Assembly (NCBI GenBank): GCA_963556145.1
Contig: OY744469.1
Location: forward strand, 1,054,001 to 1,118,000
DNA from: Hygrocybe punicea
Taxonomy: Eukaryota; Basidiomycota; Agaricomycetes; Agaricales; Hygrophoraceae
Length of the DNA: 64,000 nt
Direction: 5' to 3'
Shown here: positions 2,320 to 41,427 of the stretch, piece after piece
Layout of the letters: each line of letters begins with the position of its first letter
Numbering within the stretch: position 1 is the first letter of the stretch
Translations under genes and position numbers: made by a program
The notes under the pieces: model-generated
The model's input: the letters and a program-made list of their open reading frames with translations, nothing else
What the model was told of the DNA's origin: nothing
Databases searched by the model: none

Positions 2320-4313
2320 AGACATACCTTTTTCGTGGCATCATCAAGGTCTTCCCAGACCTGTTCAAACTCGGCCTTCGTAATGCGATGCTTCGTGCAG
2401 TGGTCGATGGCAAAAAGATTCCTGTAAAGTCAGGATCAGTGTTAGCGCATGCATGAATTCAAATGACTCACTTTGGCGTCATGGCCTGCGTTGGGTTCAT
2501 CATGGGGCCCTTCTTGATCGGCTTCTCTTTATCCTTTCCCTTCGATGCATCAATGGCAGACGAAGAGGATGCAGTGTTCGCAGAACGAGTGGCGGCCCAG
2601 AAAACAGGTTTGATTAGAGGTGTTGCAACTATCTGTTGCGCAGATTCACTTTTCCAGATCAATTATTAGCTGAAATAATATATTTCGTGTCCGAGAATGG
2701 GACTCACAAAGGATTGATGATCTTGAAAGGAGGTTGTTTTGGAACGAGTGCAGAAGTGTCCTGCGCTCTGTCGGCGGGAAAAGGCATAGGGATGTCTAGT
2801 GCTTCTTTGGTTGTAGGCGACACATTTCCAGTCTCTATGAAGGATGTCATTGTCACGATGTTATAGAATATCTATCACTTACTTTCCGTAGACAAATCTA
2901 AGGGCTGTGCAGGTACAAGCGAGGGATCGATTGAGCAATCAATCTGCGGCCGCACCAGAGGGATGGGCGGAATGAAGTCTTTGGTGGCATCGACAGGAGA
3001 GCTTGGTGGTGTGGTATCAGACAATGAATCTGTTAGCGTGGAACTAGAAGACGTAGATATGCCGACAGAACTTCCTTCTTGTGTAGTGAGTTGAGGGACT
3101 TTGAAATGCCTCTTTTTACCAGGAGGTGCATGAAACCCCATCTGGCCACACTTCTGTGGTAGGTGCATATACTCGTCGCCATCGCCGGAGACCCCCGTTT
3201 CGCTCATGTTCATTTGGTCCTCTGTCTTCGGCACCTGTTCCTTCATGACGTGTTTGCTGTACCAACCGGGGTAATTAATGGTGGCAAGATGTTCTAGCTT
3301 CCAATGGTTCTCGCAATATCGAAGTTCTGGTATGTGCTTGTACATTTCCATGTGGAAGAAATTCCTTGCCGTCGCCGTACCTTTATAGTGCCCATCAGTG
3401 GATTTCAGATAAAATGATTTTACACAAAGATACCTTTGCCCCACGTCGCTGGGGCCATGTTTCTGTCATGAAGCTCGGCCCAGAGCTCTCTCATATGGAA
3501 TGTTGTGTTTGAGATTCGGAATCCATTCACGGTGAGTCCATTCTTGTCTTCGACAAATCCGCAAGAGATGTTTTCTCCTGTAGCGATTCGAGATCTGCCC
3601 CGGGTACCAACCTTGTTGTTGACTTTCGTGACATTCTGGCTTTTTGCTCCAATCCAGTCTTGCTTGCACCAGAATCTGACTTTGGGGTATTCTTGTTGAT
3701 CTGGAGGGGTCAACAGCGACTCTGAGCTGAGTTCAGGGCTGCCGGATGAGTGAATCGTGTTTGTCATAGTTTTCATTGTCTCTCTGTAGCAATGTGTTAG
3801 CATAACTATCCCGAGTAGGTATACAACATACCGCGAGAAATCCAATTGTGATTTCAAGTGCATGTGGTCGTAAAAAAGATCTCGGTAGGATGGATTGTGA
3901 AGTAGAGTGTCGTGATCAAGGTCCTCAATGATCATTTGTTGCAACGGATAACGTGAGCCAGGCTGGATTTGCTGTAAGAGTACCGTTTTTTTGTCATTGA
4001 TTGTACCAAATGGCAAATATATGCGTACCATTTGTGAAGTCATTCCAATATTACCTACACTCCATGGATCTGAAACCTGTCTATGCATTGTTTTATTTGT
4101 TGTAGCGACTTTGCGTGTACTCATTTGATTGTATGTGGGAAGGTAGAGGTTTTGATTCGAAGGCGACAAGATGCTTGCTGGTAGTTCTGGGGAATCGTCA
4201 AGAAAGAGTGAGTTCTGCTCTGACGAGCCTGACTGAGAGAAAGATGGATAAACGTAGGGATTGTTGATGCCACTTGGCATGGTCGTAGTACGAGACCAAG
4301 AGGTAGTAGACAT
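2320..4313 (-). CDS. Companion (cargo) gene of the Plavaka-type element, function unknown
   Basis: A multi-exon gene reading away from the small plus-strand gene. The start is ATG at 4313. The first exon codes for about 160 residues that are Ser/Pro/Gln rich. A 48-bp intron (3785-3832, GTATGT...CTACAG) joins phase to an exon with the most conserved-looking block: KVRFWCKQDW, NGFRISNTTFHMRELWAELHDR and TWGKG. After another intron comes a block with MYKHIPELRYCENHWKLEHL and YPGWYSKH, rich in aromatic residues, His and Cys, suggesting a folded domain. The C-terminal part is Pro/Ser rich, with further exons around 2720-2830, 2468-2640 and 2330-2420, and ends in a charged segment. I see no stop inside the exons. 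I do not recognise a named domain. By position it could be the DNA-binding partner that CACTA elements often carry beside the transposase, but that is inference. Confidence 0.65.
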
Positions 4314-5043: not shown

Positions 5044-8000
5044 TCAATCCAAGTCTTCTTCAATACCTCCCAGTGTCGCGACATCCAAGCCGAGTTTCTC
5101 AGCAGCAAAGAATCTGGTGTTATCATGAGGGAATGGAACCATCGCTACAGCAGAATGGATTTCTGTCATGGGTATCACCTGGAATCCATCGGCACCACGA
5201 TATTGGCAGCACCAGAGTACGTTGTAGGTATTTCGTAGCAGGTCCAAGTCAGGTGGGGAATAAGTTGAAACAAGTGCTAAAGTCTTGATTTCGTCACGAA
5301 TGTCAACTTGGAAGAAGTATTGTACCTCTCCATAATGCAACATATCATCTAGCGAGAACTAAGTCCATGGAAATGTCAGTAGAATAACATGGACGCATAA
5401 GAAGGACGTACCCGGATGTTCCGTGACATACGCACATTCTCAAGAAGCTTCCGTTTCTCTTTCCAGGCAGACCGTACAATTTGTCCAGTGGGAAGTCGAA
5501 GGCGGGCCCATCGGAATAGCCTGGGATTCCATCCCTCTACATCCTGTCCTGTTTGCTCATGCATATATGCACGAACAGCTGCAGCTGCGGGTCCCTGCAA
5601 TGTTTTCATGTGCTCATCTTTCGCACGTAGAAGTACATAGCCGTTGCCGAGATCTTCTGAGCTGCAGGGGTTCTTTTCTTTTTTTTGGAGTGCCGGTATC
5701 ATGGCTTTGAGGGCGTTAACTTGAGCACGGCGAAGTCCGCATTGGGCCAAGTTGGAGTATGGCTTTGATGGTTGCTTCATTTCTTCTGTAAGGTTTCCTA
5801 TGGTCCTTTCCATCATCCACTGCGTGTGGTAACAACCAGGTCCGAGCCGCGGTACTTGGGGTGCAAGATGGAGCAGTGCATGCACAGCAGGTCGGCAGAA
5901 GTGAATCCGTTCAGGTTTGCATTGGTAATATAGTTCTTCGAACTCTTGCACAAATTGGATCATAAGTGCATGCGCCCATTGAAGTTCTTCACGTGTGATC
6001 ATATGTTGATGAAGGATTCGAAGACCAGACACGAGCTTGCAAAAGTTCTGGTAGTAGCGGTTAGGAAGTATGCCATAAAGTAAACCTGGCCCGAGAACGA
6101 AGATGTACATGAGAAATTCCCAAGCTTTGTATCCGCTGGAAATTTTCTCAGAGGGGTTGCGGGGAGGGACGTCAAAGGATCCGGGCAAGTATGGTATTGA
6201 TTCGGCAACGGTTGCTCCATGATGTGTCCATGTATCATCTTATAAGACAGCCCAATCCCACGTTAACTTGTCATCCGGTGCTTTGCAAGCTATAGTTCCA
6301 TGCCAAAGTGAGAGGAGGAGGTCGGTGATGTTCAATGCGATGAGGTGCATAAGGTCAGCGGGAAAACACAAGGGAGGGTTTATCATGCGGTATAATGGGA
6401 GTCCGCTGAAGATACTTGGCTTGACAATGCCAGTCTCCTTGTGGCGTGCGATAAATTGAGCCATATTTGCAGAGGCGATGAGGTAGTTGACATTGCAAAG
6501 GTATTCATCTGGCGGTCGCATGGGCATCTGATGGAAATTGTAGTTGTCGTGGTCGCTACCTTCGAGGATATAGTTACTGGGTTTGAGATGAGCTGGATAA
6601 TACGTGTTATCACTTTCTAACCGACGTCCCTTGATGGGGCAATAGATCCTGCAGGAGTTGTAGCCCTGGTGGCCAGTCAGCCCACTCATGTGAGAGGCGC
6701 CAGGGCCATCAGCTGCACCAAACACAAAATACAGATGGAAGACGTGAACCGCCCCATCGTGTGCATCCCATACGCAGAAACCTTCTCACTGGAGGGCAGA
6801 AAGATGGTGAAGGGTGGGGAAAAGAAATGAGTCAAAGTTTTTCGGTGCATTGGGACCTGGAATGAATCCTCCGGGTTTGACAACATCCGTTTTGTACCTG
6901 CCATCGGGAGCTAAGTCGAGTATGGCCCAAATGTGGATCCAACAGTCTGACGTCTTTTTCTCAAATATTTGTGCGCCATCAATCGAGAAGAGGAGCGTGG
7001 TGTCATGGTCACCAATGTGGCCCTCACAGAAAGCATTGAGATATTCGGAACCGGAAAGAAAATCTTCGTAAGTATCAAGTTGTTGGGTAATGGGGTCTAG
7101 ATGAGCTAAAATTTCGTGTGTGCAGGTTGCTCGATATCGCATAGCTTCTGCGGTTTCAGGACTGCGCCACAGAGCTTGCAGCTGGGGGCCAAGGGGAATT
7201 GTGAGGAAGGCTTTGACAGGTTGGCGGATCTCGCCATTACTGGCCTCGTACTGGATAGGATCATACTGCAGCGTTCCACACATGGGACAATGGGTCAAGT
7301 CCGCCAGAGGGCCTGTGAAGCCTACACACGAATTCTTGCACATATCATGGAATAGTGGTACAACTCCGGTCAACTCGCGAATCTTGCATTTGATGCGATT
7401 GAGGGAAAGGAAATCACAATCGGGAAAACGTTCCGAAATGGCATCACCAACTTCGGTGTAAACGTCTTCAGACCCTTTTGTGGTAGCTAAAAATATTTTG
7501 ATTGCAAGGGTGAGGTCGGGGTCATCAACGTCAGGCGGGCCTTCAACAGGATTGCGCAGCCGATGAATGGTGTCAGGGTCAAGCCCACCATTATCAAGCA
7601 TAGCGGAACGAACTAAAGCAATGTACGCAAGCATGAGATTGATGTTGTCAAGGGGGGCTTGGTTGAATTCGTGCTCTGGTGGGGGATCTGGCAGGTGACC
7701 TTCGGCTGGAATGCCATCAGGATCTGCATCCGGAACGCCATCGGGTTCTGCATTCTGAATGGCGTCAAGATCCCAAAGACTTCCGGGATCAACCGCTCGG
7801 TCGAGAGGGTCATTCTACAGACATGGATTCAGCACTCAGAGAGGTTTATTTGCGAGCAACATACAGTATTGTCCTCATCGTCATCAGAAACATCCATGTC
7901 AACTTGCACTTGCTGCACTGGGAGAGGGTCGGCGTAGAGGTCTGCAATTTCATCATAAGGTGTGGGGGTGTCATTGGGGGCCTCCCTGGCATCAAGAGTG

Positions 8001-8224
8001 CAATCCTGTTCATCATCGGAGACTACTTGGTCGTGATCAACTGGGTCAGGAGCTAGGTGGACAGGTCCTGGGTCAAGATTGTGCTGGCGAAGGTAATTAT
8101 CGAGGACAGTGCGAATCGCGGTGCGGCGGTACTGTGCGTGTGCATAAAACGTCCTTCGGGAGCCTTTTTGGAGTTCTACACAGTATCGTGCACAATTGCA
8201 GAAGTATTCCCATTCGTGAGACAT
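5044..8224 (-). pseudogene. Plavaka-type transposase with two in-frame stop codons
   Basis: Cut-and-paste transposase of about 950 residues. Exon 1 (7865-8224) holds the Cys-rich N-terminus (YFCNCARYC, RRTFYAHAQYRR). Intron 7815-7864 (50 bp) follows. The main exon runs to 5412 and contains DMCKNSCVGFTGPLADLTHC with CPMC, LLFSIDGAQIFEKK and WAILDLAPDGRYK. After that come FGAADGPG, GHQGYNSCRIYCP, CFPADLMHLIALNITDLLLS, SSGYKAWEFL and PAVHALLHLAPQV. Intron 5359-5411 leads to the last exon (5044-5358), ending EEDLD. Two stops break the frame. TGA at 6786-6788 falls where relatives have Arg (LSALQ*EG), which fits CGA to TGA. TAA at 6240-6242 follows TWDWAVL. The frame is otherwise continuous, with no shift. 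Unless the stops are read through, the copy cannot make full-length protein, but a related helper could move it. Confidence 0.9.
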
Positions 8225-8432
8225 TGAAGTTGAAAATAACTTGGAAAGAAAGTATGATAGAATGATGATGGTGGGGAGAAAGTACTTTGAAAACGGAAAC
8301 TTAGAGCAAGACTTAGAGGCAAGCGGAAGCGGATTCCGTTCGTTGGCATTTTCGATCGTTTACAAATGGATATAAAAGGAATTATATTATGTAAAAATAT
8401 CTCAAAATATGGACTTTTCACTGGGAATCAGC

Positions 8433-8983
8433 TGTAAGACAGAATTAAGGAAAATCAGGTTTTCCTCATATGACGTGACAAATGCACTTTTCTTATTTGC
8501 GCTTGCTTCACAACTTCCTTTGTTTAGCAATGCTGTTATATTTACTTGCAGTTTGGGGAGATTACAAGGTTCATTTTATATTCTACCTGCATACTTAGAT
8601 ACTTTTAGTCAACTATTAACTACATTTCAGTGAGGAGCAGTCTCACTCTCAGCACAAGAGAGAAATCAACGACCTGCCTTTTTTGGTTGTGTGATATTTG
8701 ATTTGCTGCCATTGTGATGGCCAAGGACCCCTGATTATTTCTACTAAGGCCAGATCAAAATCCGGACAAATTTTGAGGTTTTATTACAAAATGCCAGGGT
8801 AAAGTCCGGACAAAACCGCTCCAGGTGGCAAAAATGCCAGTTCCAAAGTCCGGACAGGGGCCCCCCAGCTACCTGAGGCCATTTAAAAATCCGGACAAGG
8901 GGACATTGCAAGAAATTTTAATTGATTAATAATTAATTTTGAGCCATCCCGGAGGTCACAGCTCACAAGCAAACGAAGCATTA
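8433..8983. other. AT-rich spacer with one repeat-family terminus; no gene seen
   Basis: No credible exon. From about 8720 to 8900 there is a stretch with several TCCGGAC motifs that begins with ACCCCTGATTAT and GGCCAGATCAAAATCCGGAC. This is the same repeat family as at 15850-16010. Confidence 0.6.
8724..8900. repeat. TCCGGAC-rich repeat, copy A (Tc1/mariner-like or MITE terminus)
   Basis: GGACCCC-GATTAT-TCTAC-AAGGCCAGATCA here matches 15846-15893 with few changes, and GGCCAGATCAAARTCCGGAC is repeated there in inverted order. The other end of this copy is not obvious. Assignment to Tc1/mariner is a guess from the motif style. Confidence 0.5.
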
Positions 8984-27252: not shown

Positions 27253-30200
27253 ATGCTGAGATGTCTATCAATTCACAAGGCTTTGCATCTATATTCATTT
27301 TCACTGAAGCCACCTTGTAACTTCTGCCAAGTTCAAAAACAAAACACCAATTCCTTGTCTATTGAGAGGATAAGATGTGGAATTAACACTGTGAATACAG
27401 CTCCTGTGGGTGGTGGCAGGTCTCATATATTTCCTGCCAATGCTATAGTTCCATATATAACAAAAGGTAGAGATCATGTTTATCCCAACTCAGTTTATTT
27501 GTTTGTCAACTACATTGATAACTCTGATCTGGTGTCTTTTCCAGTAGAGCAGAAGTTTATTCATGCCAATGTTCCATTGCTTGACATCATTCCGCACTTA
27601 CCTGGTCACATGGTAATTAAGATTGCACAGATTCACAACATTACTATTGGTTCTCATGTGCCAAAAAAACATATGACTTCCTACTTTGAAAATCACAGAT
27701 GCATTAATTGTGATCTGTATGCTAGCATATTTTCTGTTATGTTGAGCCCAGCAAAGAAGAAACAGCAGCAAAACACAAAGCATGTAACTTTGTCTGAAAA
27801 ACAAATTTTTGTTCAACATCAAAGGAAGCACAAAAATTATGTTGCCAAAAAATCTCAGCAGTGCAGCCTCTCTCCTGCTGAGCAGCATGTTTTTCCACCT
27901 CCACCTTTATCTTCAGAGTTAGCTCATACTGTTGTGTTTGACTTTTATTGTGAGTCAACTCCAAGCATATTTGAAGAGTCAGGATGTGCAGTGTGCAGTG
28001 AGCTAGTACCATTAAATAATTTAAGCCAATTGAAAAGTATAAAAGGCATGCTCAACATTCTTGAAGCTCCAGGGATGACAAGAATTGAACGGAAGAAATC
28101 AACAGACAAGATTTGTGAATACAAAGGGCCTGTTTTGGACTATAAATGCAACAAAATATGTGTTGAGTGTCGGAAATCTATTAGAAATGGAAATGTTCCT
28201 AAACTTGCTCTAGCTCAAGGACTTTGGTTAGGGAATGTTCCCAAGGAACTCACTGAGCTTCGGTTTGTGGAAAAGCTACTTATAGCTCGCATCCGTCACA
28301 ACTGTTGTTTTGTATGAGTTGCTTCAGGAATGAGGAAGATGACATCACATGTTGTTGCATTTCAATCACCCATTCCAAAGATTTACCAGGCACTCCCTCC
28401 ACCTGTTGATGATCTCGATGATGTCTTAGCCATTTTATTCACTGGGCCTTGTAAGCCAACAGAAAAGGACTTTGAACGAACACCCTTGCTGGTACGAAGG
28501 AACCATGTTGCAAGGGCACTTGAATGGCTAAAGCTCAACCACATTGACTACCATGATTTGGATATATCTTATAAGAATCTTGCTGAATATCCTGAGGATG
28601 GCCCACCTGTCTCCGTTGAGTATCGCCATAGAGAGACAAATAAAGTACCAGAGGGTACAAGTGTATTTGACCATGAAGATGAACATGGTACTGAGCATGG
28701 TGACTGTCCATTCATTGTTCATGGATTGGCTGGTGAGGATCTAGACACCAAGACAATTAAATCACTTAAAGGAATTGCACTCAGGCATCTGAATAATGGT
28801 GGTAAGATGTTGGCAATTGGTCATTCTTCTGAATATGTGTCTATTTACCACAATCCAGGAATTTATCCACAGATGTTTCCTTGGCTATTTCCATATGGAT
28901 TGGGTGGCATAGGTTCTACTTCCTTGTCTGATGCAGAACACAAGCAACATCTTCTGATGTACCATGATAAACGCCTTCAAACAGACATATACTTTCCATT
29001 TGTTGCCTTTAGTCATGCTCAAGTAAAGGCCAGCTCAACTGGTGGTTTTTTGCTTGCAGACAAGACAAAATTTCATGAAATATCCAACCGTCTGTTGAAT
29101 GTTGATCAAACTGTCTTGTCTTCTTTGGCTAAGAGATTGTCAGAGGGAGAAGTTGTGAAGCCAGTTAGTCAAGAAGAGAAAGATTGTTACCAAGTAGTCC
29201 GAGACTTGGATCATGTGGGAGCTAAAGTGAGTGGATCTACTACAAGCAAGAAGTATATGAGAAATGAAATTTGGTCCTTGATCTCTTACTGTGGTGCACC
29301 CTCATGCTACATTACTTTATCTCCAGCTGATGTCAAGCATCCAATTTGTTTATACTTTGCAGACACAGAAGAAAAATTCTATCCAAAAATTAGGTCAAGT
29401 GATGAGTGAATTTGTCTTATTGCAAAGAATCTAGTGGCTGGTGCACGTTTTTTCCACTTTATGGTCCAACTTTTTATCAAACATGTGTTGGGTGTGGATA
29501 ATAATCATCCTGGCATATATGGTGATACTTCTGCTTATTATGGCACAGTTGAGCAACAAGGACGTCTCACATTACATCTTCATATCTTGATTTGGATTCG
29601 TGGTTGCCTGACACCACAAGAGATCAGAAAGCGGATATTGGATCCAAGTTCAGATTTTCAGAAGAATATTGTTGAGTATCTAGAAAGTACACATGTTGGT
29701 GAATTTCTTACTGGACCACAAGAAGAAGTGTTGAAAAATATCAATGATGCTTCATGTTCCACAGATTATTTGGATCCAACACAGACTTTACCAGAACCAC
29801 CCCCAAAGCAATGTTCTAAAAAGTGTGGCAAATGCAACCAATGTCAAGATTTGAAAACTTGGGAGGATAAGTTTAAATCTGTAGTTGATGATATTTTGGC
29901 TAAATCAAACATACATCATTGTTCCACCAACAGAAATAAAGATGGTTCTCAGCATAAATCCCAGCAGTACATTGGATGCATGGATAATAAGTGGGGAAAA
30001 TGTAAAGCACGATTTCCTCGTCCTGTATTCAGCCAGACTGAAGTGGATCCTACAACTGGAGCTCTTAATATGAAGAAAGCAGAGCCAATGATAAACACAT
30101 TTACCCCTCTGCTTACATATTTATTCCGGTCCAACACAGATGTAACAAGTCTGAAATCTGGAACAGCAATTAAAGCTGTAATACTTTATGTATCTGATTA

Positions 30201-31910
30201 TATTACCAAAATTGCTTTGAAAACTCATGTTATATTTGATACAATTCGAGCAATGTTTCAGAAGAACAGTGAAATGATAGGTGGTCATGAAACTCAAAAG
30301 GAAAAAGCACGTCGACTTATGACAAAAATTGTAAATAACCTGAGTGCAAAGATGGAAATTGGATCACCCATGGCTTGCATGTATCTTTTACGCAACCCTG
30401 ACCATTACACAAACTTTCACTTTGCTCCATTCTATTGGCAGAGTTATCTTCATGAGGCACGTGAGGCCTGGAATCCAGATGATAGCAGAGAACATGTTGG
30501 AAAGGTAGCTTTAATCAAACACAGAGGTCACATTGTTGGATTATCACCTGTTTTTGATTATATATATCGTCCCTCTGAACTGGCAGGTATGTGCTTGTAT
30601 GATTGGATAAGCCGTTGTAAACGTGAAAAGCTTCCAAAATCTAAGTTGATTACAAAAGAAAATGGGGGTAATGTTGCTGATGAAAGCATAATTTCTGATA
30701 CATCTCATGTATCTCAGTATGATAGAGATGGGTCTGATACTGAAGAACAACATCAGACTGGTTTGTCTTGCGATCATTTAAAATCTGATGAAATAAATGA
30801 CTCTGTGCAGAAAGTGGATGAAAAGACAGAGACAACTTCTCCTGCTGGCCTATGTGTCTTTCTTGACAATCATTCACTTCACAAGTCACATGCAACTCGT
30901 TGTGTGCAGAAGGAGAGTGCACAAATTCCAACATTTGTGGGAGCTACATTACCACGATGTGACCAAGGTGATCGTGAATATTACTGTTCAGCAATGCTTG
31001 CATTATTTCGACCTTGGCGCTCTGGATATGACTTAAAAACCAAAGATCAATCTTGGGATGAGTCATTTTTAAAATTTGAGTTTAGTCAAAGACAAAGGGA
31101 GCTGATGGACAATTTCAATATAAAATATGAGTGTCTTGATGCACGTGATGACTTCCATGCACAGCTTCAAAAGGGTTCAGTGGTATTACCAAGTTGGTCT
31201 GATGATTATGATCTGATATTAAACCACAAACATTCAGAACAACTACTTGATGACTTTCAGAACAACAATGAACTGGCAGAGTTACATGAGGAGTTCAATG
31301 CTGACTTTAATGAAACTGGTAAGCATGAGAAGAAACGTCAAGTTGACATAGCAACTATGCGAGCAGTAATGACTCAAACAGGTTGGACAGAGGCTATCCT
31401 TCTGAAGTCATCAGATGTTCAGTTACCAGTACCTGAAATAATACAAACAGGGAGTCAGTGGAAAGCTGATGTGCAGAAGAAAAGACAAGACCTACTTGAA
31501 AACAGAGTTGAAAACTTGCCAAGTCATGCTAATGAATCCCTAACATGCAAACAAGGCAATCTTTCAAGATATAACAATGTAAAAATTGTTGATAAGTCAT
31601 ATCTTGAGCAAGACTATCACTCTGGTATCTCTAGATCAACAATGGACAACATTGTGAAAGACTTCCAACTGAATGTAGAACAGCAAAGAGCATTTTACAT
31701 TGTTGCAAATCATGCATCCAATAGAAAATTTGAGCAATTGAAAATGTATATTGGTGATATGGGTGGCATAGGTAAAACCCAGGTTTTGAAGGCTTTGGTA
31801 CAGTTTTTTAATGTGAATAATGAAAAACACCGTTTTGTGATAGTTGCCCCTACTGGAACAGCTGTGGCTCTGCTAGCAGGATCTACATATCATTACATGT
31901 TTGGATTAAA
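27253..31910 (+). pseudogene. Helitron Rep/helicase, N-terminal and Rep part, with two TGA stops
   Basis: Rolling-circle transposase. From 27253 the frame has a Cys-rich N-terminus (HRCINCDLYASIF), then CAVCSELVPL ... KICVECRKS and LRFVEKLLIARIRHNCCFV, resembling the DUF6570 region that precedes Rep in Agaricomycete Helitrons. The Helitron-like N domain follows (HNPGIYPQMFPWLFPYGLGG). Rep follows with YYGTVEQQGRLTLHLHILIW (the two-His motif, His codons near 29575 and 29581) and the tyrosine motif YVSDYITK near 30186. The helicase begins at MYIGDMGGIGKTQVL (Walker A, near 31750). TGA at 28315-28317 (CCFV*VASGMRKM) and TGA at 29407-29409 (SSDE*ICLIAKN) both stay in frame and fall where Arg is plausible, so both fit CGA to TGA. 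The reading stops at the palindrome after TTT GGA TTA AA. Confidence 0.9.
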
Positions 31911-32337
31911 CACTTCAGTCAACCACCTAGCCCCAACTAACTAGATGTAACACAACTCTGTAGGTGTTCCATCTAAGTGTTCATATAACCATGGTACTCC
32001 CAAGGACAATTTATTGCCCCAGGGACATTCTGACTGTAGGCAAGCGTAGGGTTATATTTTTATCCCTAGGGACAATTTCCAAAGAAGACCAAAGGCTGAA
32101 TAGTTATCCCAAGGGATGATTTTGAGAAAGGATCATGGCCTGAAATATCATCCCATGGGACATATTATAATACCATCAGGGAGAATATATATTTTCCTGG
32201 GATATATTCTCAACCAGGTGTTGCCTCAGCTCAAGCTGATGTTTTTTGAAAAATGGCTATAACATTGTAAATAAAATAGGTAAAATTATGAAAATATTTG
32301 TGTGCATAGATTAAAAGGCCTAGGGACTGTAATTTCA

Positions 32338-32650
32338 TCCCTTGGGATATGTATTTCATCCCTTGGGATATTTATTTCGTCCCTTGGGATATTTATTTAA
32401 TCCCTTGGGATATTTATTTCGTCCCTTGGGATATTTATTTCATCCCTTGGGCTATTTACTTTATCCCTGGGGATATTTATTCCGTCCCTTGGGATATTTA
32501 TTTCATCCCTTGGGCTATTTATTTCATCCCTTGGGATATTTATTTCATCCCTTGGGCTATTTACTTTATCTCTGGGGATATTTGTTTTATCCCTTGGGAC
32601 ATTTATTTTATCCCTTGGGACATTTATTTTATCCCTTGGGATATTTATTT
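32338..32650. repeat. 21-bp minisatellite, left arm (about 15 copies)
   Basis: The unit is CCCTTGGGATATTTATTTCA plus T, with changes such as CGT or AAT at the end. In one frame it spells a 7-residue PLGYLFx repeat, which accounts for the long open frame here; coding is unlikely. The mirrored array in the right arm has about 13 copies. Confidence 0.9.
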
Positions 32651-33020
32651 TACCTGAGAAAAGCCCATGGGACATATAGAATATCCCATGGGATACTTAT
32701 CTTGTCTAGAAAACAGCCCATGGGACATGTAGAATATCCCATGGGATACTTATCTTGTCTTAGAAAACAGCCCATGGGACATAGAACATCCCTTGGGATA
32801 CTTTCACTATTACAGAAACAGCCCATGGGACATGAAAAATATTGCTTGGGATATTTACGTTAACCAAGAAAAAGCCCATGGGACACATAAAATATCCCAT
32901 GGGATATTTACTTTACCCACAAAAAAGCCCATGGGACATATAAAATATCCCTTGGGATACCTTTGTTATCGCAGAAACAGCCCATGGGACATATAAAATA
33001 TCCCTTGGGATATTTACTTT
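32650..33020. repeat. ~65-bp minisatellite, left arm
   Basis: Repeated AAAGCCCATGGGACATATA followed by AATATCCCTTGGGATA-type units with variable spacers, mirrored at 37850-38265. Confidence 0.85.
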
Positions 33021-33199
33021 ACTCAAAAAAGCTCCAATCTACAGGCTGGTGGGACTGCCTGCTTGCTCAGCATCTGCCAAGTCACACAATAATAATCATA
33101 GCAATGCCACATGTTACATAATTTTAATTTACCAACCACTCAAAATGGATATAACAAATTAAATAATTATTTTACCTAACTACATGTTATTCTAATTTA

Positions 33200-34133
33200 T
33201 CAGGGAAGAGACAGGGAGGTGGAGGAGAGGGGAATGGCAGGGAATGGGGGTGAGCAGGGGGAGAAGGGGCAGGAGGTGGATGGGAGGTGGGGATGGTGGA
33301 TGGACAGCACATAGGCAGGGGGAGAAGGGGTAGGAGACAGCCAGGGGGAGAATGGAAAGGAGGAGGGAGGAGGGGGAGGGGAAAGGAGGGAAAGGGAATG
33401 ACCAACAATACATACCAGTGTTCCCCTGGTGTCCACGCCCCTCGCCCTTGTCCTCGTCCTTGTCCTCGTCGTCCCCGTCGTCCTTGTCGTCCCGGTCCCC
33501 GTCGTCCTCGTCGTCCTGGTCCCCGTCGTCCTCGTCGTCCCAGTCCCCGTCGTCCTCGTCCTCGTCCTCGTCCCCGTACCCATCCGCCTTGTCCTCGTCC
33601 TCGTTGTCCCCGTCCCCGTCGTCCTTGTCCTTGTCCTCGTAGTCCCCGTCCCCGTCCTCGTCCTCGTCGTTACCGCGTGGCCCTGTTCCCGTTCGCGTTG
33701 TCGTTGCCGTCCCGTTTGCCGTCCCGTCCTCGTCGTCCCTGTTGCCGTCATCCTTGTTGTCCCGGGCTCCGTGGTCCTCGTCGTCCCGTTCCCCCGTCCC
33801 GGTCGTCCTCGTTTCCGTCGTCCGTTGCCCCCGTCCCCGTTCCCGTGTTCGCTGTCCTCGTCCTCATCCTCGTCCTCATCCCCGTTTCTGTCCTCGTCGT
33901 CCCTGCTGCTGTCGTCCCGTTCCCCGTCCCGGTCGTTCTCGTTTCCGTCGTCCGTGGTTCCCGTCCGCCCGCTGTCCTCGTCTTCGTTTCCTCGTCCGTG
34001 TCGTGGTTCCCGTTCCCCTTGCCGTCGTCTTCCCCTTTCGCGCCGTGGTCGCGTTCGTTCGTTTACCCCGTCGTCCTCATTCCCGTCGTCCTCGTTCTTG
34101 CTGTCGTAGTGGGCCTGGGTTGTCCCCGTTCTC
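33200..34133. repeat. GTCCTCGTC-rich low-complexity tract, left arm
   Basis: A strongly periodic 3/6/9-bp repeat. The reverse strand would encode Asp/Gly/Glu/Arg-rich sequence. It mirrors 36700-37435 in the right arm. Long open frames exist in all frames on both strands, so none is evidence for a gene. Confidence 0.85.
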
Positions 34134-34141
34134 GGCTGCGT

Positions 34142-35441
34142 TAGTGTTGGGGAAGTTCGGTTTGGTCCGGTTTGGGGCCTTTTTGCCCAAACCGGAAACC
34201 GAATGGTCCGGTTTTCCACCCAAAGTCCCCAAACCAGACCGAAACCGATGCAAACGGTTTGCATCGGTTCGGTTTCGGTCCAAACACGGTCTGAACCGCG
34301 GACCGCTAGTGCTCAGTGCCCCTGCACCATTCTGACCTCGCAACAGTGCTGCGCACGTCAATTGACGTGGCCAGCCTGTTTGCGAGGTGAGATTGGGGTG
34401 CTGGGGTGCTGGCACACCCTGCGCCGGCATTGAGCCGCACGCGGGCTTCTCCATGGGTGTCCCGACGCGTCACACGCGTTGTACATGCGATGTGGGTTGA
34501 CCGCGTTGGCCGTTTTCGGTGGACGCGTGATGGTGGTGGTGGTGGTGGTGGTGGTGGTGCCCCACGCGTCATACGCGTTGTGCACGCGACGACGGCTGGG
34601 CCGCTTTGGTTGTTTTCGGCGGACGCGTGGTGGTGGTGGCATAGGAGCCTCTTCGCGAGGGTGTCCGGACGCGTCATACGCGTTGTACACACGACGACGG
34701 CCGGGTTGACCCCGTGTTGGCCTTCCTCGGTGGTGTTAGTGTTGCGTGGTGGTGGTGGTACGGTGCCGCGTTCTATAATGGACGAATAAATCAGTGAAAA
34801 AATGAATAAAGGTACATACCACGAAGGAGCGGGGTGGATGCACCACCCCTGCTGCTCTTCCACCTTGTTGACTCCACCCCATTCACGTACGTTTGGCGCG
34901 CGTTTTGAACGCGTTTGGCGTGGCGCTGGGGGTGGGCCGTGGGCGTTGCTGTGGGCGCGTCCGGCGTGGCGTTGACGGTGGTTGTAACCGTCGCCGTTGT
35001 CGTTGCCGTTGTCGTGGTCGTTGTTGTGGTGGTGGTGGTGGTGGTGGTGGCCGTGGTGCATCAACCTGTAATTTGTAAATGCGTTAGTTAAGTTCGAATA
35101 AATAAAAATAAAAAACATACGCGGGCGGCAGGGAGTACCCCGCCGCCCGTTTTGTCGACCTCAGGTGCTCCATCGTCTTCGTTTGGCGTATATCGGGGGT
35201 GTTGTTGGTGGGGTTGGTGACTTTGGGTGACTTTCGAAGTCAGCCATGTAGCCGACTTTGGACTGTCGGTTTGCGGTTCAAACTGAGTTTGAAACCGTTT
35301 CGGCCCGCGGCCAAATCTCCAAACCGGAGACTGAACGGTTCGGTCTCAGCCGAAATTTCCCAAACCGAAACCGAAACCGGCGGTTTCGGTTCGGTCTAAA
35401 CCGGGTTTGGGTCGGTCTGAGACCGAACTTCCCCAACACTA
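34142..35441. mobile_element. Non-autonomous hAT element, 1300 bp, in the left arm of the palindrome
   Basis: Inverted ends TAGTGTTGGGGAAGTTCGGT and ACCGAACTTCCCCAACACTA are perfect over 20 bp. The flanking duplication is GGCTGCGT (34134-34141 and 35442-35449), 8 bp and exact. Subterminal regions repeat AAACCG/CGGTTT many times, as is usual for hAT. The interior has three ~110-bp copies of a segment with ACGCGTCATACGCGTTG (34465-34730) and GGT/GTG microsatellites; no transposase. The corresponding site in the right arm is empty. Confidence 0.95.
34465..34735. repeat. Three tandem ~110-bp units inside the hAT element
   Basis: Units start near 34465, 34562 and 34668 with ACGCGTCAYACGCGTTGT and continue to a (GGT)n tract of variable length. 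Confidence 0.75.
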
Positions 35442-35531
35442 GGCTGCGTACCGTCTCCTTGTCGCCCGCATGCGTGTCTGCTTGTTGCTGTTGCCGCGTT
35501 CGCGTTCGTTTGGCACGAGGGTGAGGGAAAA

Positions 35532-35591
35532 AAACCTACAAGTGTGTTTAAGTAGTCAGTAGAATGAAGAAAAAAGATAAAGAATAATTAC
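35532..35591 (-). other. Intron-like segment in left arm, mirrored in right arm
   Basis: On the strand pointing away from the spacer, CCCCAG is followed by GTAATT...CTGAC...TTGTAG and GTTTTTTTCC. The right arm has the same with better signals at 36553-36609 (GTAAGT...CTAAC...TTTTAG). Both follow a frame beginning MATRPRLG and reading outward from the centre, so each arm may hold part of a former gene. Confidence 0.4.
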
Positions 35592-36031
35592 CTGGGGTGC
35601 TCTGGCATCCGCACCCGTTGTCGCGTCGTTGTTGAAAACGAAGTCTTGTTGAACTCGCGCGCGAGAATTTCAACCGGGATTTGCCGATATCCCAAACGGG
35701 GTCGAGTTGCCATATAGGGAAGGGTGGCTGGATTTTCTTATTATTATTACATGTACTACAGCACCTAAATGGCCAGGGCAAGACCCTGAAGAGATATAAG
35801 TATGCTATACCTACCCCACAGGGAGTTTTTGTATTTTATTTCATTTTATATGGGGAGATATTCACAATGCATTCTATGCCTCTGCCAAAAATGGACCCTT
35901 AAACACCTAACTTTGCGACTACAGGTCTGAAAAATCTAAATTTAATTCTACGGGTACTAGGGAAGGTGTACATTGTGTTCCAGACAAGTGCCTGGTAGTT
36001 GGTGGTGCGGAGAATGTGTTGTAGCCAAAAT

Positions 36032-36111
36032 GGATTTGGATCTTTGCATTGTGGCGAGACAATCAAAAGTCCGTATAATCATGATTCGAATGTGAGTGAC
36101 AAGTTCATAAT
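36032..36111. other. 80-bp central spacer of the palindrome
   Basis: Unique sequence between CTACAACACATT-type arm starts: the left arm ends GTAGCCAAAAT at 36031 and the right arm starts ATTTTGGCTAC at 36112. Confidence 0.9.
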
Positions 36112-36429
36112 ATTTTGGCTACAACACATTCCCCGCACCACCAACTACCAGGCACTTGTCTGGAACACAATGTACACCTTCCCTAGTACCCGTAGAATTA
36201 AATTTAGATTTTTCAGACCTGTAGTCGCAAAGTTAGGTGTTTAAGGGTCCATTTTTGGCAGAGGCATAGAATGCATTGTGAATATCTCCCCATATAAAAT
36301 GAAATAAAATACAAAAACTCCCTGTGGGGTAGGTATAGCATACCTATATCTCTTCAGGGTCTTGCCCTGGCAATTGAGGTGCTGTAGTACATGTAATAAT
36401 AATAAGAAAATCCAGCCACCCTTCCCTAT

Positions 36430-37671
36430 ATGGCAACTCGACCCCGTTTGGGACATCGGCAAATTCCGGTTGAAAGTCTCGTGCACGAGTTCAACAAGAC
36501 TTGTCGCTTTCAACAACGACGCGACAACGGTGCGGATGCCAGAGCACCCCAGGTAAGTGGTCCATTTATGCTTTTCATTTATTCTACTAACTACTTAAAT
36601 ACTTTTAGGCTTTTTTTCACGCACCCTCGTGCCAAACGAACGCGAACAAAACAAGCAGACGCGGATGCGGGCGACAAGGAGGGAGGACACAGCCCAGAAC
36701 GGGGACAACCCAGGCCGACCACGACAGCAAGAACGGGGACGACGAGAATGAGGACGAGGGGTAAACGAACGAACGCGACCACGGCGCGAAAGGGGAAGAC
36801 GACGGCAACGACAACGGGAACCACGACACGGACGAGGAAACGAAGACGATCGGGACGGGGGAACGGGACGACGAGGACCGCGGAACCCGGGACAACAAGG
36901 ATGACGACGACGACGACGACGACGGGGACGATGACGACGAGGACAGCGAGCACGAGAACGGGGACGGGAGCAACGGACGACGGAAACGAGGACGACCGGG
37001 ACGATGACGAGGACAACGGAGACCGGGACAACGAGGACAACGGCAGCAGGGACGACGAGGACTGAAATGGCGAGGACGGGATGGCAAACGGGACGGCAAC
37101 GACAACGCGAACGGGAACAGGGCCACGCGGTAACGACGAGGACGGGGACGGGGACGGGGACTACGAGGACGAGGACAAGGACGACGGGGACGGGGACGAC
37201 GAGGACGAGGACAAGGCGGATGGGTACGGGGACGAGGACGACGACGAGGACGACGGGGACCGGGACGACGAGGACGACGGGGACCGGGACGACGAGGACG
37301 ACGGGGACCAGGACGACGACGACGACGGGGACCGGGACGACAAGGACGACGGGGACGACGAGGACGAGGACGAGGACGGGGACGGGGACAAGGGCGAGGA
37401 TGCGGAGGGGCGTGGACACCAGGGGAACACCGGTATGTATTGTTGGTCCTTCCCTTTCCCTCCTTTCCCCTCCCCCTCCTCCCTCCTCCTTTCCATTCTC
37501 CCCCTGGCTGTCTCCTACCCCTTCTCCCCCTGCCTATGCTGTCCATCCACCATCCCCACCTCCCATCCACCTCCTGCCCCTTCTCCCCCTGCCCACCCCC
37601 TGCCATTCCTCCTGCCATTCCCCCTCTCCTCTCCTCTCCTCCACCTCCCTGTCTCTCCCCTTATAAATTAG
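36430..37671 (+). other. Low-complexity Asp/Gly/Arg open frames, right arm; probably not a real gene
   Basis: Outward from the spacer, a frame starts MATRPRLGHRQIPVE, crosses an intron-like segment and enters a GAC-rich tract that would code for D/G/E-rich sequence. All three frames stay open across the tract, so openness carries no information. The short N-terminal part before the intron is the only portion with ordinary composition. It may be a captured host exon. Confidence 0.3.
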
Positions 37672-37849
37672 AATACCATGTATTTAGTGAAAATAATTAT
37701 TTAATTTGCTATGTCTATTTTGAGTGGTTGGTAAATTAAAATTATGTAACATGTGGCATTGCTATGATTATTATTGTGTGACTTGGCAGATGCTGAGCAA
37801 GCAGGCAGTCCCACCAGCCTGTAGATTGGAGCTTTTTTGAGTAAAGTAA

Positions 37850-38265
37850 ATATCCCAAGGGATATTTTATATGTCCCATGGGCTGTTTCTTCGATAGCAA
37901 AGGTATCCCAAGGGATATTTTATATGTCCCATGGGCTTTTTTGTGGATAAAGTAAATATCCCAAGGGATATTTTATATGTCCCATGGGCTTTTTTGTGGG
38001 TAAAGTAAATATCCCAAGGGATATTTTATATGTCCCATGGGCTTTTTTGTGGGTAAAGTAAATATCCCAAGGGATATTTTATATGTCCTATGGGCTTTGT
38101 CTTGGTTAATGTAAATATCCCAAGCAATATTTTTCATGTCCCATGGGCTGTTTCTATAAGAGTGAAAGTATCCCAAGGGATGTTCTATGTCCCATGGGCG
38201 GTTTTTTAAGACAAGATAAGTGTCCCATGGGATATTCTATATGTCCCGTGGGCTTTTCTCAGGTA
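37850..38265. repeat. ~65-bp minisatellite, right arm
   Basis: Mirror image of 32650-33020, with a different number of units and small changes. Confidence 0.85.
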
Positions 38266-38545
38266 AAATAAATATCCCAAGGGATGAAATAAATATCCCA
38301 AGGGACAAAATAAATATCCCAAGGGATGGAATAAATATCCCAAGGGACGAAATAAATATCCCAAGGGACGAAATAAATATCCCAAGGGAAGAAATAAATA
38401 TCCCAAGGGTCGAAATAAATATCCCAAGGGAAGAAATAAATATCCCAAGGGAAGGAATAAATATCCCAAGGGATGAAATAAATATCCCAAGGGACGAAAT
38501 AAATATCCCAAGGGACGAAATAAATATCCCAAGGGATGAAATTAC
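38266..38545. repeat. 21-bp minisatellite, right arm (about 13 copies)
   Basis: Reverse complement of the 32338-32650 array. The unit is AAATAAATATCCCAAGGGA plus two bases. The copy number differs between arms. Confidence 0.9.
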
Positions 38546-38971
38546 AGTCCCTAGGCCTTTTAATCTATGCACACAAATATTTCCATAATTTTACCTATTT
38601 TATTTACAATGTTATAGCTATTTTTCAAAAAACATCAGCTTGAGCTGAGGCAACACCTGGTTGACAATATATCCCAGGAAAATATATATTCTCCCTGATG
38701 GTATTGTAATATGTCCCATGGGACAATATTTCAGGCCATGATCCTTTGTCAAAATCATCCCTTGGGATAACTATTCAGTCCTTGGTCTTCTTTGGAAATT
38801 GTCCCTAGGGATAAGAATATATCCCTACACCTGCCTACAGTGAGAATGTCCCTGGGGCAATAAATTGTCCTTGGGAGTACCATGGTTATATGAGCACTTA
38901 GATGGAACACCGACAGAGTTGTGTTACATCTAGTTAGTTGGGGCTAGGTGGTTGACTGAAGTGGGATTAAA

Positions 38972-41427
38972 TGAGAATTCTAGTGACCATATATCAAACA
39001 ATCAGATTGCACAGTTGAAGTCACGATTACAAGGTGTTGATTATATTTTTTTTGATGAGGTGTCAATGTTATCTTGTCGAGATATGTATCGTATCAGTGT
39101 AAGAATGGCCAAAATTTTCAATGAAACAGAAGTGCCTTTTGGTGGATTAAACATGATATTTGCAGGAGACTTTGCTCAACTACCCCCCTGCACTAGGACA
39201 TGAACATGCATCTCTCTATAGTAGAACAGTTGGTGGCAGATCTACTAGCCACACAGATCAGGAAGCTGCCATTGGAAAAGCTTTGTGGCACCAAGTCACA
39301 ACTGTTGTTATACTAAGAGAAAACATGAGACAACGACAACAGACAAAGGAAGATGCTCAACTACGACAAGCCCTTACAAATATGCGATACAAAGCTTGTA
39401 CTCTGGAAGATCTCGTCTTTTTGCGATCACATGTTTCTAGTAATTTACCTGGTCGTTTGTCAATCAATGATGAAGAATTCAGACAAGTCTCTATAATCAC
39501 TGCTCTCAACATTCACAAAGATGAAATTAATCGTCTTGGGTCATTGAGATTTTCAAAGGAGATAGGTCAGCCATTGACTGACTTTTTTTCTGATGACTCA
39601 ATTCATTCACAGGAAAGGCAAAAAAAGAGGCATTCATCTTGCCTTGTTGTAAGTCACAACACTACCATATCAGATAATGTTCAAGAGATTCTGTGGAATC
39701 AACCACATAGTTCTAACTCCAAATGTATACCTGGCAAACTATCTTTGTGTGTTGGAATGCCAGTGATTATTTGAAATAATAGTGCAACTGAACTATGTAT
39801 CACCAGAGGTCAAGAAGACACTGTTTATTGCTGGCAGTCTGCAATAGGTTCCAGAGGTCAGAGAATTCTGGATACTTTGTTTATAAAACTGCACAATCCA
39901 CCACAGAATGTTAAATTAAATGGATTACCTGAAAATGTTGTTCCATTAACAAGGACAAGTGTTACTATTGATTGTGCTTTACCTGATGATTCTTCTATGA
40001 CTCTTTCCCATAGTCAAGTGGAAGTACTTCCTAATTTCTCAATGACAGACTATTCCTCGCAAGGAAAAACTAGGCCTAATAATCCAGTGGACCTTAACAA
40101 TAGTCGTTCTCATCAGTCTTATTACACTGCATTGTCACAAAGTGCATCAGCTGCTGGTACAGTTATTTTGCAGGGATTTGATGCAAAGAAGATAACAGGA
40201 GGTGCATCTGGTGCATTGCGTCAAGAATTCCGTGAACTGGAGCTTCTAGATGAGATAGTTCGTTTGAGATATGAGTGTAAGTTGGACAAGTCTGTTGTTG
40301 GTGATCGCAGGAATTCACTGATACATACTTTCAGAAAATGGAAAGGAGAATATTATGTACCTGCCAATGTACACAAAGCTATTTGTTGGAATAAGTCTGA
40401 TGTTTTCAATGTAGATTCAATTGTTGATATCCCCAGGAAAATTCTGGGAAAAGCCCAGAAGGGCCAAGAAGTCAGGACTTTAAAGTCACAATTTGTGCCT
40501 GCAGCAGGGACTTCTCCTGCCAAATTTTGTCTGCCATCAGCTGTCAAGAGAAAGGTCAGTGGCTCTCAAGTGGCACCTCAAAAGAAAAAAGTGAAAACTA
40601 ATCATGTTGTTGATAGTCTTCCAACAACCTCTATTAATGTTCCTCAGGGTACTCGTTGGCACAATAACAGTTGTGCATATGACTCAGTTGTATCCATATT
40701 GTATGGTATCTGGCAAGATGACAGAACTCTGTATTCAAATTCTTTTAGAAATTTAAATGGTGAGTTTCTAGGGCTTTTGGTAGATGGTTTTTCCAGATAT
40801 TATAATGGTGAGTACTCATTGGAAGATGTTCGTGGTCTTTTGAGGCGTCATTTACATCAGCATGCACCACAGAGTTTTCCATGGGGAAGGGACACTAGTG
40901 TTGATGCTATCTTATATATGTTGTTAGCAACTAGAACCCCTGTTCTTTCTTCCAACCTTTCTTGTCCTCAACGTCATCCTGTTGCTAGAGATCAATTAGC
41001 ATTACTGAGTAATTGCAATATAAATGTTGGAGGGATCACTTCTGGATCTATCCAGAGTGACATTGATTTGTTTGTGAATGTCACTGGTTCAAAGTGCACA
41101 ACCTGTAATGACTCACTACTCAGGAAATTCAAGTTTGTGTGTTCTCCTCAGATATTAGCCTATCCTGTGTCTGGTGTTAATATGACTGTTAACCATACCT
41201 TGGCAGTACCAGTTGAAGGACAGTTACACCAGTATTGTCTCAGAGGTGTTATATATCATGGTAGTAATCATTTTACCACTCGTTTTATTAGTTCAGCAGG
41301 TCTTGTTTGGTTTCATGATGGAATTGCCACTGGGAGATCTATGGAATATGAAGGAATGTTAGATGATGTTGTCCTGACTCAATGCAGGTCAAAACAAGCA
41401 AGTATGTCATTGTATGTTTTGGTGTAA
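38972..41427 (+). pseudogene. Helitron helicase C-terminal part with protease-like tail
   Basis: The frame resumes from GGATTAAAT with NENSSDH, then SRLQGVDYIFFDEVSML (Walker B, near 39050) and FGGLNMIFAGDFAQLPP. An extra C in a six-C run (39183-39188) shifts the frame, which continues as ALGHEHASLYSRTVGG, WHQVTTVVILRENMRQR and helicase motifs to 39771. TGA at 39772-39774 (GMPVII*NNSATELCITRGQE) is followed in frame by SMTDYSSQGKTR (helicase motif VI region). The last ~250 residues hold WHNNSCAYDSVVSILYGIW and YHGSNHFTTRF, a Cys...His pair in a context like cysteine peptidases, seen as the tail of many Agaricomycete Helitron helicases. One shift and one stop make this copy defective. Confidence 0.9.

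Follow-up and report, generated by a model that had tools for sequence, protein, structure and literature searches.

Among the closest described counterparts of the element reported here are the fungal KDZ (Kyakuja-Dileera-Zisupton) transposons. Zisupton leaves 8-bp duplications (PMC12730594); Cryptococcus KDZ1 measures ~11 kb, has TIRs of 241 bp, makes 8-bp duplications and carries KDZ plus CxC1, with duplications of 4-8 bp left by KDZ2 and KDZ3 (PMC12810828). The 8-bp duplications and CA..TG ends of fungal KDZ elements (Zisupton, Kyakuja, Dileera; Cryptococcus KDZ1-KDZ3) recur at the locus analysed here, and the same genome contains relatives of ~9.7-12.3 kb with KDZ and CxC domains. Unlike fungal KDZ elements, however, the element in question is palindromic almost throughout, and no transposase was found in it. 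The TIRs of the KDZ-type elements of this genome measure 1.2-2.3 kb, versus 139-241 bp published for Cryptococcus KDZ (PMC12810828), whereas the Kyakuja families described in PMC12730594 are without TIRs.

In architecture, the element resembles Galileo, a Drosophila member of the P superfamily, whose long, internally repeated TIRs, transposase-free copies consisting almost entirely of TIR, and chimeras have counterparts here, and whose TIR tandem repeats contain transposase-binding sites (PMC3573991 and PMC3688188). Two-TIR copies of Galileo average 1.7-2.2 kb, with a longest TIR of 1,260 bp (PMC3573991), whereas the arms here reach ~2.8 kb. With lengths of 4.5-24.4 kb, the 18 copies of the present family are also outside the range of MITEs, usually <600 bp as stated in PMC3573991. 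The Galileo enzyme belongs to the P superfamily, while the present family has an 8-bp duplication and KDZ-type ends. Galileo duplications are 7 bp long, and the 8 bp found here depart from this length. FB and Mutator/foldback elements such as Tm1 likewise have long inverted repeats that contain tandem repeats; FB has a 9-bp duplication and a link to Mutator, in contrast to the 8-bp duplication and KDZ-type ends described below.

The palindrome and its insertion site

The window, a stretch of 64,000 nucleotides from Hygrocybe punicea (contig OY744469.1), contains the element with the features listed in Table 1. It is delimited by perfect 14-bp inverted ends (CACTTCAGTCAACC from 31911, GGTTGACTGAAGTG up to 38963) and flanked on both sides by the octamer GGATTAAA. 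Two inverted arms of ~2.8 kb each surround an 80-bp spacer; they are of unequal length because a nested element of 1,300 bp, with the ends TAGTGTTGGGGAAG/CTTCCCCAACACTA and an 8-bp duplication of its own (GGCTGCGT), sits in the left arm. The underlying unit without it measures ~5.7 kb. From its features we take the nested element to be hAT-like; genome-wide, its 19-bp end is present at 323 places. The exact coordinates and the inverted alignment bear out the palindrome, perfect ends, 8-bp duplication, arms and spacer of the preliminary description.

Inverted arms with internal tandem repeats make up most of the element, an architecture of the foldback type. In three gap-free copies, a profile of arm identity whose first bin takes in half of the spacer starts high at the centre, drops in the GAC tract and rises again toward the ends. 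The corresponding inverted matches of the window copy are 98% over 391 nt at the centre, 88% for 33440-33782/37021-37363 in the GAC tract and 94% over the 700 nt of 31911-32610/38264-38963; in the three segments compared (T, U and C), the window arms are ~4-6% apart. No Pfam match was found in any of the eight element ORFs scanned, the KDZ transposase of an autonomous KDZ element included, and among the matches listed from a genome-wide KDZ search (186 matches; 150 of 429 candidates scored) none was located inside the element. No transposase was therefore found in it, in agreement with the preliminary description.

The element interrupts a Helitron helicase. When the flanks are joined, the helicase frame stays open until a stop at 39201-39203, and the joined junction is matched by eight Helitron paralogs at 98-99% and by further paralogs at 81-93%. 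As the site is also uncut in all six paralogs fetched (L035-L040), the earlier proposal that removal of the element restores the helicase frame holds.

Table 1. Features of the palindromic element and its flanks, in window positions.
Feature	Position	Strand	Basis or remark
Whole element, 7,053 bp	31911..38963	.	Exact inverted ends, flanking duplication, further genomic copies
Left 8-bp target duplication GGATTAAA	31903..31910	+	One copy only in 6/6 uninterrupted Helitron paralogs read
Right 8-bp target duplication GGATTAAA	38964..38971	+	Exact match to left copy
Interrupted Helitron ORF, 5' part	29434..31910	+	Helitron_like_N; PIF1 start just under Pfam cut-off
Helicase frame continued to first stop	38972..39203	+	Joined flanks
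Left terminal ~70 bp (edge approximate)	31911..31980	+	Aligns with KDZ-coding elements and other palindrome subfamily
Right terminal ~70 bp, mirrors left one	38894..38963	-	Alignment
Left outer arm, 1,120 bp, with minisatellites	31911..33030	+	CCCWWGGG n=29; TGGGAC/GTCCCA n=10
Right outer arm, 1,120 bp	37844..38963	-	CCCWWGGG n=29; TGGGAC/GTCCCA n=9
Left-arm GAC/GTC-rich tract, abuts nested element	33430..34141 (left edge approximate)	-	Direct reading
Right-arm GAC-rich tract	36700..37400 (edges approximate)	+	Direct reading, inverted match
Nested element, 1,300 bp	34142..35441	.	Ends TAGTGTTGGGGAAG/CTTCCCCAACACTA; 8-bp duplication GGCTGCGT
Left central arm	35641..36031	-	391 nt, 98% complementary to 36112-36502
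Right central arm	36112..36502	+	391 nt, 98% complementary to 35641-36031
Centre spacer, 80 bp, asymmetric, common to family	36032..36111	.	Copies compared
Candidate first exon, right arm, 41 codons	36430..36552	+	Sequence reading, family alignment
Candidate intron, 56 bp, GTAAGT ... TAG	36553..36608	+	GTAAGT columns conserved
Mirror copy of exon, left arm, 122 bp, frame-shifted	35592..35713	-	Sequence comparison

Copies of the palindrome in the genome

The exact 20-bp end of the window element occurs 58 times in the genome (31+27), versus 0 for the reversed control, which is far more than chance would give. Of these ends, 38 form 19 pairs, 18 of which were read, the other being a 30-kb pair at C34:911461-941579; two of the 20 ends with no exact partner, those of L043 and L044, were also read through. 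Among the 18 copies read whose CAACC ends are both exact, 16 are flanked by an exact 8-bp duplication, the window copy among them, and the remaining two have a 7-bp duplication and an 8-bp duplication with a mismatch, respectively. Each copy has its own flanking sequence, and the spacer, readable in 10 of the 18, is similar in all ten. For the comparison of arms, matches covering <75% of a segment were omitted, with segment C comparable for both arms in 15/18 copies; an identical pair of distinguishable arms was found in eight of the 18, including the window copy. The arm class of E24, with a diverged left T segment (86%), rests on U and C. At the level of the assembled genome, these copies show that the palindromes form a family whose ends are exact and whose 8-bp duplications are so in most cases, and that whole two-armed units have been copied to many sites. 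The family is large, recently multiplied and in part very young. The ends recur unchanged in other copies, each with a duplication of its own, which answers the refuting conditions set in the preliminary description as far as an assembly can.

Runs of N are present in 14 of the 18 copies and, in a second set, in all eight loci whose arms are mutually closest, as might be expected if the assembler had mirrored a single arm. The window copy is free of N, however, and its two arms show 28 differences over the 503 positions of the central segment, each arm being 0-1 changes away from the matching arm in other copies; moreover, the copies have individual flanks, and the arms of all eight gap-free loci of the second set are 3-10% apart. 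Since the same two distinguishable arms recur in 8/18 copies, the palindrome moves as a unit, and we regard an assembly mirror as barely conceivable. The near-identical arms of about half of the copies could alternatively stem from arm-to-arm gene conversion or repeated re-palindromisation, that is, from a palindrome that homogenises itself. This would suit the eight of 18 copies with 0-2 arm differences in segment T and 0 in U, the loci L009 and L010, with arms differing in T, not in U and in L010 also not in C, and the private changes common to both arms in some loci. Gap-free copies show no such homogenisation, though, and because all near-identical-arm copies contain N, assembler collapse is equally possible; we consider self-homogenisation possible but rather unlikely. 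A steady gradient of arm identity from centre to edge, considered as a sign of conversion, was absent in three gap-free copies.

Ends related to KDZ elements

The preliminary description had named hAT, P or KDZ-like enzymes as possible movers, of which KDZ is the one supported, as related ends enclose KDZ domains; the domains searched behind the ends were those of KDZ. Related ends with PF18758 between them were found in K_C2 (CACTTCAGGCAACC, 8-bp duplication GTATGAAT; 5.5e-58), K_C8b (CACTTCAGTCCACC; 3.6e-56) and K_C34 (CACTTCAGGCTACC; 6.1e-58), where the 8-bp duplication of K_C34, AGAGAGAA, is weak evidence because it is a simple repeat. K_C2 is nearest to the window ends, with one difference in the first 14 bases and ~85% identity over 46 bp. 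A further element with related ends, K_C8a, has CxC1 (KDZ-associated cluster) at 4.5e-10 and is without most of the KDZ-core stretch present in K_C8b. Queried with the KDZ core, a protein database gave 860 relatives.

The terminal ~70 bp of the window element align with the ends of KDZ-encoding elements, and the sister palindromes D033 and D034 have the outer 1.04-1.13 kb of the K_C34 terminal repeat at 82-84%. In each of the six elements tested, TGGGAC/GTCCCA reaches 8.0-19.4 per kb in the outer repeats, against 0.6-1.4 per kb in the middles of the same elements and the rest of the window. Similarity between the palindromes and the KDZ elements is confined to the ends with their minisatellites, the core being unmatched. 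Among the pairs and elements examined, none was an autonomous element whose ends are exactly those of the window element, and no KDZ match fell within the coordinates of E18, E24 or the 30-kb pair among the matches listed. Two large exact-end pairs were considered as autonomous elements and discarded, since a Ty3/Gypsy-like pol ORF, identified by reading, lies in E18 (18.3 kb), while E24 (24.4 kb) is occupied by a GGN tract and ~14-15 kb of tandem array.

With 8-bp duplications in 16/18 copies and ends homologous to those of KDZ/CxC-encoding elements, two features of a non-autonomous KDZ element are present. We interpret the window element as a non-autonomous, foldback-type cut-and-paste DNA transposon with KDZ ends, at a probability of roughly 0.85. 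As its ends match those of KDZ-carrying transposons, it is probably a passenger of such an enzyme. A KDZ transposase produced elsewhere would bind both ends, with the closely spaced TGGGAC/GTCCCA motifs in the outer arms probably serving as its landing platform, and the bound enzyme would excise the element and reinsert it with an 8-bp staggered cut. hAT elements leave 8-bp duplications, too, and a hAT-like family is abundant in the genome, so that a hAT transposase could be the mover and the likeness to KDZ ends convergent; yet this likeness extends over ~70 bp, the sister palindromes share 1.1 kb with the terminal repeat of a KDZ element, and the ends of the nested hAT-like element are quite different, which makes a hAT mover very improbable.

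The core and its exchange between ends

The core sequence was found behind three end types, CAACC, GGCTACC and CCACC, the last with duplications of 7 bp, not 8; ends and core have therefore been exchanged. The palindromic core would predate the split of the subfamilies and would later have been joined to three or more kinds of KDZ ends. L043 and L044 each have one CAACC end, a different second end and no duplication. L044, gap-free and with one end of each type, suggests ectopic recombination between palindromes, with which its sequence is compatible; L043 resembles it, has 200 N near the centre and may be mis-scaffolded.

The candidate exon and intron of the right arm raise the question of whether two protein genes in head-to-head orientation (a ~41-codon exon, then an acidic tail), serving the element, are what the palindrome is for. 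Among the 150 exon matches listed (150 of 267 candidates scored), 39 of 41 close pairs are head-to-head, and donor site, TATA-like box and start context are conserved. Changes by codon position, however, number 40/40/32 and, with CpG sites excluded, 11/22, 10/23 and 16/27 sites, as counted in 46 arms from 23 loci (20 pair-selected from the exon matches plus D033, D034 and the window, with no near-identical-arm copy from the family of the window element among them). A stop occurs in the first 32 codons in 8/46 arms, and the alpha arms and near-identical-arm copies are frame-shifted or stopped, with GTAATT in place of GTAAGT, yet have multiplied. These counts do not demonstrate protein-level selection; the arm gene was rejected as the reason for the palindrome, and we consider it improbable.

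At the centre, the longest block (-300..+123) gave an RNAalifold z of -5.5 against column shuffles, which speaks for some RNA structure as predicted by this model; four sub-blocks gave -1.0, -2.0, -2.7 and -1.6, and the reverse strand -2.2, 0.0 and -1.0. Rfam matched the centre with just two miRNA models, both scoring far under the gathering threshold, a result that a hairpin might give. Tentatively, and at less than even odds, the core may be a cassette that can be exchanged between elements: a promoter-like module, inverted and head-to-head, whose centre is ancient and fixed and whose conservation is at the DNA and not the protein level, and which would spread via the ends of KDZ lineages (CAACC, GGCTACC, CCACC; 8- or 7-bp duplications) and be mobilised by whichever enzyme fits these ends.

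In the literature searched, with most subscription papers outside it, we found no KDZ member described as foldback or palindromic. As the palindrome family occurs alongside probable enzyme donors with terminal repeats of 1.2-2.3 kb, the evolution of giant inverted repeats becomes directly testable. Arrays of transposase sites were proposed in the Galileo work (PMC3688188), and KDZ is a different superfamily from that of Galileo, with a candidate array in TGGGAC. Copies with distinguishable arms, finally, provide a natural marker for the copying and repair of multi-kilobase palindromes.

Insertion site, nested element and further copies

The genome examined comprised 92.2 Mb in 42 contigs. The perfect inverted ends and exact 8-bp target duplication of the preliminary description were found at the element's borders, and the arms mirror each other from these ends to the asymmetric spacer, as described there. 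The left arm is the longer because a further element is nested in it. This element is presumably hAT-like by its appearance; its 19-bp end occurs 158 + 165 times in the genome (323 in total; reversed control, 0), and among the matches listed these ends are often paired about 1.3 kb apart.

Coordinates and dimensions of the features in the window and of the KDZ-type elements
Feature	Position	Length	Remarks
Interrupted ORF	starts 29434		Helitron_like_N and start of a PIF1-like helicase
Window element	31911-38963	7,053 bp	perfect 14-bp inverted ends; GGATTAAA on both sides
Nested element, left arm	34142-35441	1,300 bp	own 8-bp duplication GGCTGCGT
Asymmetric spacer between arms	36032-36111	80 bp	
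Candidate exon and intron	right arm	41 codons, then 56 bp	intron GTAAGT..TAG
K_C8a		9,677 bp	terminal repeats 1,365 bp, 87% identity
K_C8b		9,937 bp	terminal repeats about 1,200 bp, 96% identity
K_C2		10,070 bp	terminal repeats 1,254 bp, 94% identity
K_C34 (L041+L042)	C34:778003-790273	12,271 bp	terminal repeats 2,334 bp, 99.87% identity

The PIF1 match in the interrupted ORF is slightly below the Pfam cut-off. When the element was removed and the flanks joined with a single GGATTAAA, the frame stayed open until the stop at 39201-39203, in agreement with the proposed insertion into a Helitron helicase. The host Helitron is otherwise not intact in one frame, as Helitron_like_N spans two ORFs upstream; at 27253-29409 its N-terminal regions (DUF6570, Helitron_like_N) are split across several ORFs, so that it is broken or intron-bearing upstream too. 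Across the junction, the joined 440 bases are matched by eight other genomic places at 98-99% and by more at 81-93%. Empty sites, for which a search had been proposed, were recovered as an uninterrupted ATGTTTGGATTAAATGAGAAT without the element in all six of the best-matching paralogous places fetched.

A search for other copies, proposed likewise, returned the exact 20-base end 31 times in forward and 27 times in reverse orientation genome-wide (pattern read backwards, 0), grouping into 19 pairs and 20 unpaired ends. We read 18 of the pairs, all but one that spans 30 kb on C34, as well as two unpaired ends (L043, L044). Besides the window copy, the 18 copies include 15 with lengths of 4.5-6.5 kb and two larger ones (18.3 and 24.4 kb); these two are enlarged by nested material, with no KDZ match inside either among the matches listed. 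The target duplication is exactly 8 bp in 16/18 copies, 7 bp in L020, and 8 bp with a single mismatch in L022. Tandem repeats take up roughly 14-15 kb of the 24.4-kb copy (E24; L026-L028, C33:6077291-6101720), which also contains a long GGN tract. At L015:2757-4665 (element 2299-4208), the spacer and a central arm segment are each present in two copies, the palindrome centre being locally rearranged here.

Arm types and the palindrome centre

For arm comparison, three non-repetitive segments (T, U and C) were evaluated in the 18 copies, and the nearest relatives found for each arm. One alpha and one beta arm are present in eight copies (window, L011, L014, L015, L016, L020, L023 and E24, the class of E24 resting on U and C, with its left T segment diverged). 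In the window copy, 28/503 central positions differ between the arms; yet 0 changes separate the left arm from the alpha arm of either L016 or E24, and the right arm from the beta arm of L016. The spacer was readable in 10/18 copies, and its orientation tracks alpha/beta in all seven readable alpha/beta copies. Arm classes common to different copies, together with this orientation, argue that the whole alpha-spacer-beta unit was transposed; the arms are evidently real and distinct, and copies separated by few changes or none point to recent spread.

Two further copies (L009, L010) are of mixed class, and in the other eight (L012, L013, L017, L018, L019, L021, L022 and E18) the arms agree at nearly every position. 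This near-identity could reflect real homogenisation or assembly collapse, which cannot be separated here. Runs of N occur in 14/18 copies, including all those with near-identical arms; the window copy, L014, L023 and E24 are gap-free. Among the 23 loci of a second set, the arms are closest to each other in eight, all with N, and 3-10% apart in all eight gap-free loci; the remaining seven contain N, and their arms are not each other's closest.

Each arm contains a start codon in conserved context. Searching with the exon protein yielded at least 150 matches, at 109 places among the matches listed, where 39 of 41 exon pairs less than 2.5 kb apart are oriented head-to-head. In 46 arms from 23 loci, changes at codon positions 1, 2 and 3 numbered 40, 40 and 32 (11/22, 10/23 and 16/27 without CpG sites), and a stop falls within the first 32 codons in 8/46; protein-level selection on the exon is thus not supported by the codon-position test in these arms. 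Changes per site amounted to 1.17 for the first 32 codons, compared with 0.33-0.97 for the donor site and the 300 bp upstream and 2.58 for the next exon. The most that can be said is that the centre resembles a conserved two-way promoter-like module. Exon CpG columns of the 46 arms read CG 415, TG 87 and CA 82, a decay consistent with deamination of methylated cytosine, which suggests cytosine methylation of the family.

KDZ-type relatives and a candidate binding array

Allowing one mismatch, the 14-mer end gave 55 + 56 matches versus 12 + 15 for the control, and related ends were found paired about 10 kb apart. Four elements bounded by such ends were read: K_C8a, K_C8b, K_C2 and K_C34. Pfam KDZ (PF18758) was matched in K_C2 (5.5e-58), K_C8b (3.6e-56) and K_C34 (6.1e-58). 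CxC1, a cysteine cluster associated with KDZ transposases, was matched in K_C8a (4.5e-10) and K_C8b (5.9e-7), and under the cut-off in K_C2. Nine ORFs scanned in K_C8a gave no KDZ match; it lacks a 1.1-kb stretch which covers most of the KDZ core in K_C8b. The H. punicea genome holds at least 186 KDZ matches, versus 0 in 14 control genomes. From its terminal repeats, K_C34 would be a very young or homogenised insertion. Within the KDZ elements L030, L032 and L041+L042, additional ORFs lie on the other side; examples without a Pfam match are L032:6058-6795:+ and 7730-8491:+.

K_C2, K_C8a, K_C8b and the sister palindrome D033 can be aligned with the window element over its terminal ~70 bp. The window element does not qualify as an autonomous KDZ element, and a Pfam scan of eight of its ORFs gave no match, in keeping with the initial statement that it encodes no transposase. 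Its mode of operation is that of a foldback element or a two-TIR copy of Galileo, but with KDZ-type ends and an 8-bp duplication. In the literature searched, mostly papers outside subscription, no KDZ family of palindromic or foldback form was found.

The minisatellite of the outer repeats differs in each family. In their outer 1.1-1.7 kb, all six elements tested (window, K_C2, K_C8a, K_C8b, K_C34, D033) share the motif TGGGAC/GTCCCA at a density of 8.0-19.4 per kb, compared with 0.6-1.4 per kb in the middles of these elements and elsewhere in the window; none of 200 base shuffles per outer repeat exceeded 4. Passages of one report (PMC3688188) describe binding of Galileo transposase to sites within long TIR tandem repeats, and the TGGGAC array is a candidate for such binding. 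Another motif, CCCWWGGG, is abundant in the window element (29 and 29), K_C8a (19 and 16) and K_C8b (12 and 14), and was ruled out as a common signal because it is sparse in K_C2 (0 and 0), D033 (1 and 1) and the left side of D034 (2).

Sister palindromes and exchange of ends

The subfamily D ends CACTTCAGGCTACC occur 68 + 65 times exactly in the genome (control, 0). Two gap-free copies read, D033 and D034, have exact 8-bp duplications TCTAAGGT and TCTGGAGT. Over the outer 1.04-1.13 kb, both match K_C34's terminal repeat at 82-84%, the strongest link of the palindromes to KDZ elements; their core matches that of the window element at 80-82%, and their spacer is a 90-bp version of its spacer (88%). 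Most simply, the palindrome would have formed once before the lineages split; the KDZ ends that it carries differ from lineage to lineage.

The gap-free L045 is bounded by ends of the CCACC type and flanked by a 7-bp duplication, GACATTC; its terminal repeats are about 690 bp long, and it holds a stretch of the palindrome core (83% to the window element), not the full palindrome. Another CCACC-ended pair, C1:1592497-1598498, encloses a head-to-head exon pair, by coordinates only. All three CCACC-type elements read (L029, L032, L045) leave 7 bp despite ends closely related to the 8-bp types; 8-bp duplications flank the two GGCTACC palindromes, K_C2 and K_C34, that of K_C34 being a simple repeat. 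According to published work, Zisupton makes 8-bp and Kyakuja 7-bp duplications (PMC12730594), and those of Cryptococcus KDZ2/KDZ3 measure 4-8 bp (PMC12810828).

The gap-free L044:77-6175 (C34:983236-989334) combines a D-type (GGCTACC) left end with a CAACC-type right end and has no duplication; L043 resembles it, likewise with mixed ends and no duplication, and has 200 N near its centre. One end of each type and no duplication are what recombination between two insertions should leave, so L044 likely arose by ectopic recombination and may mark a chromosome rearrangement breakpoint.
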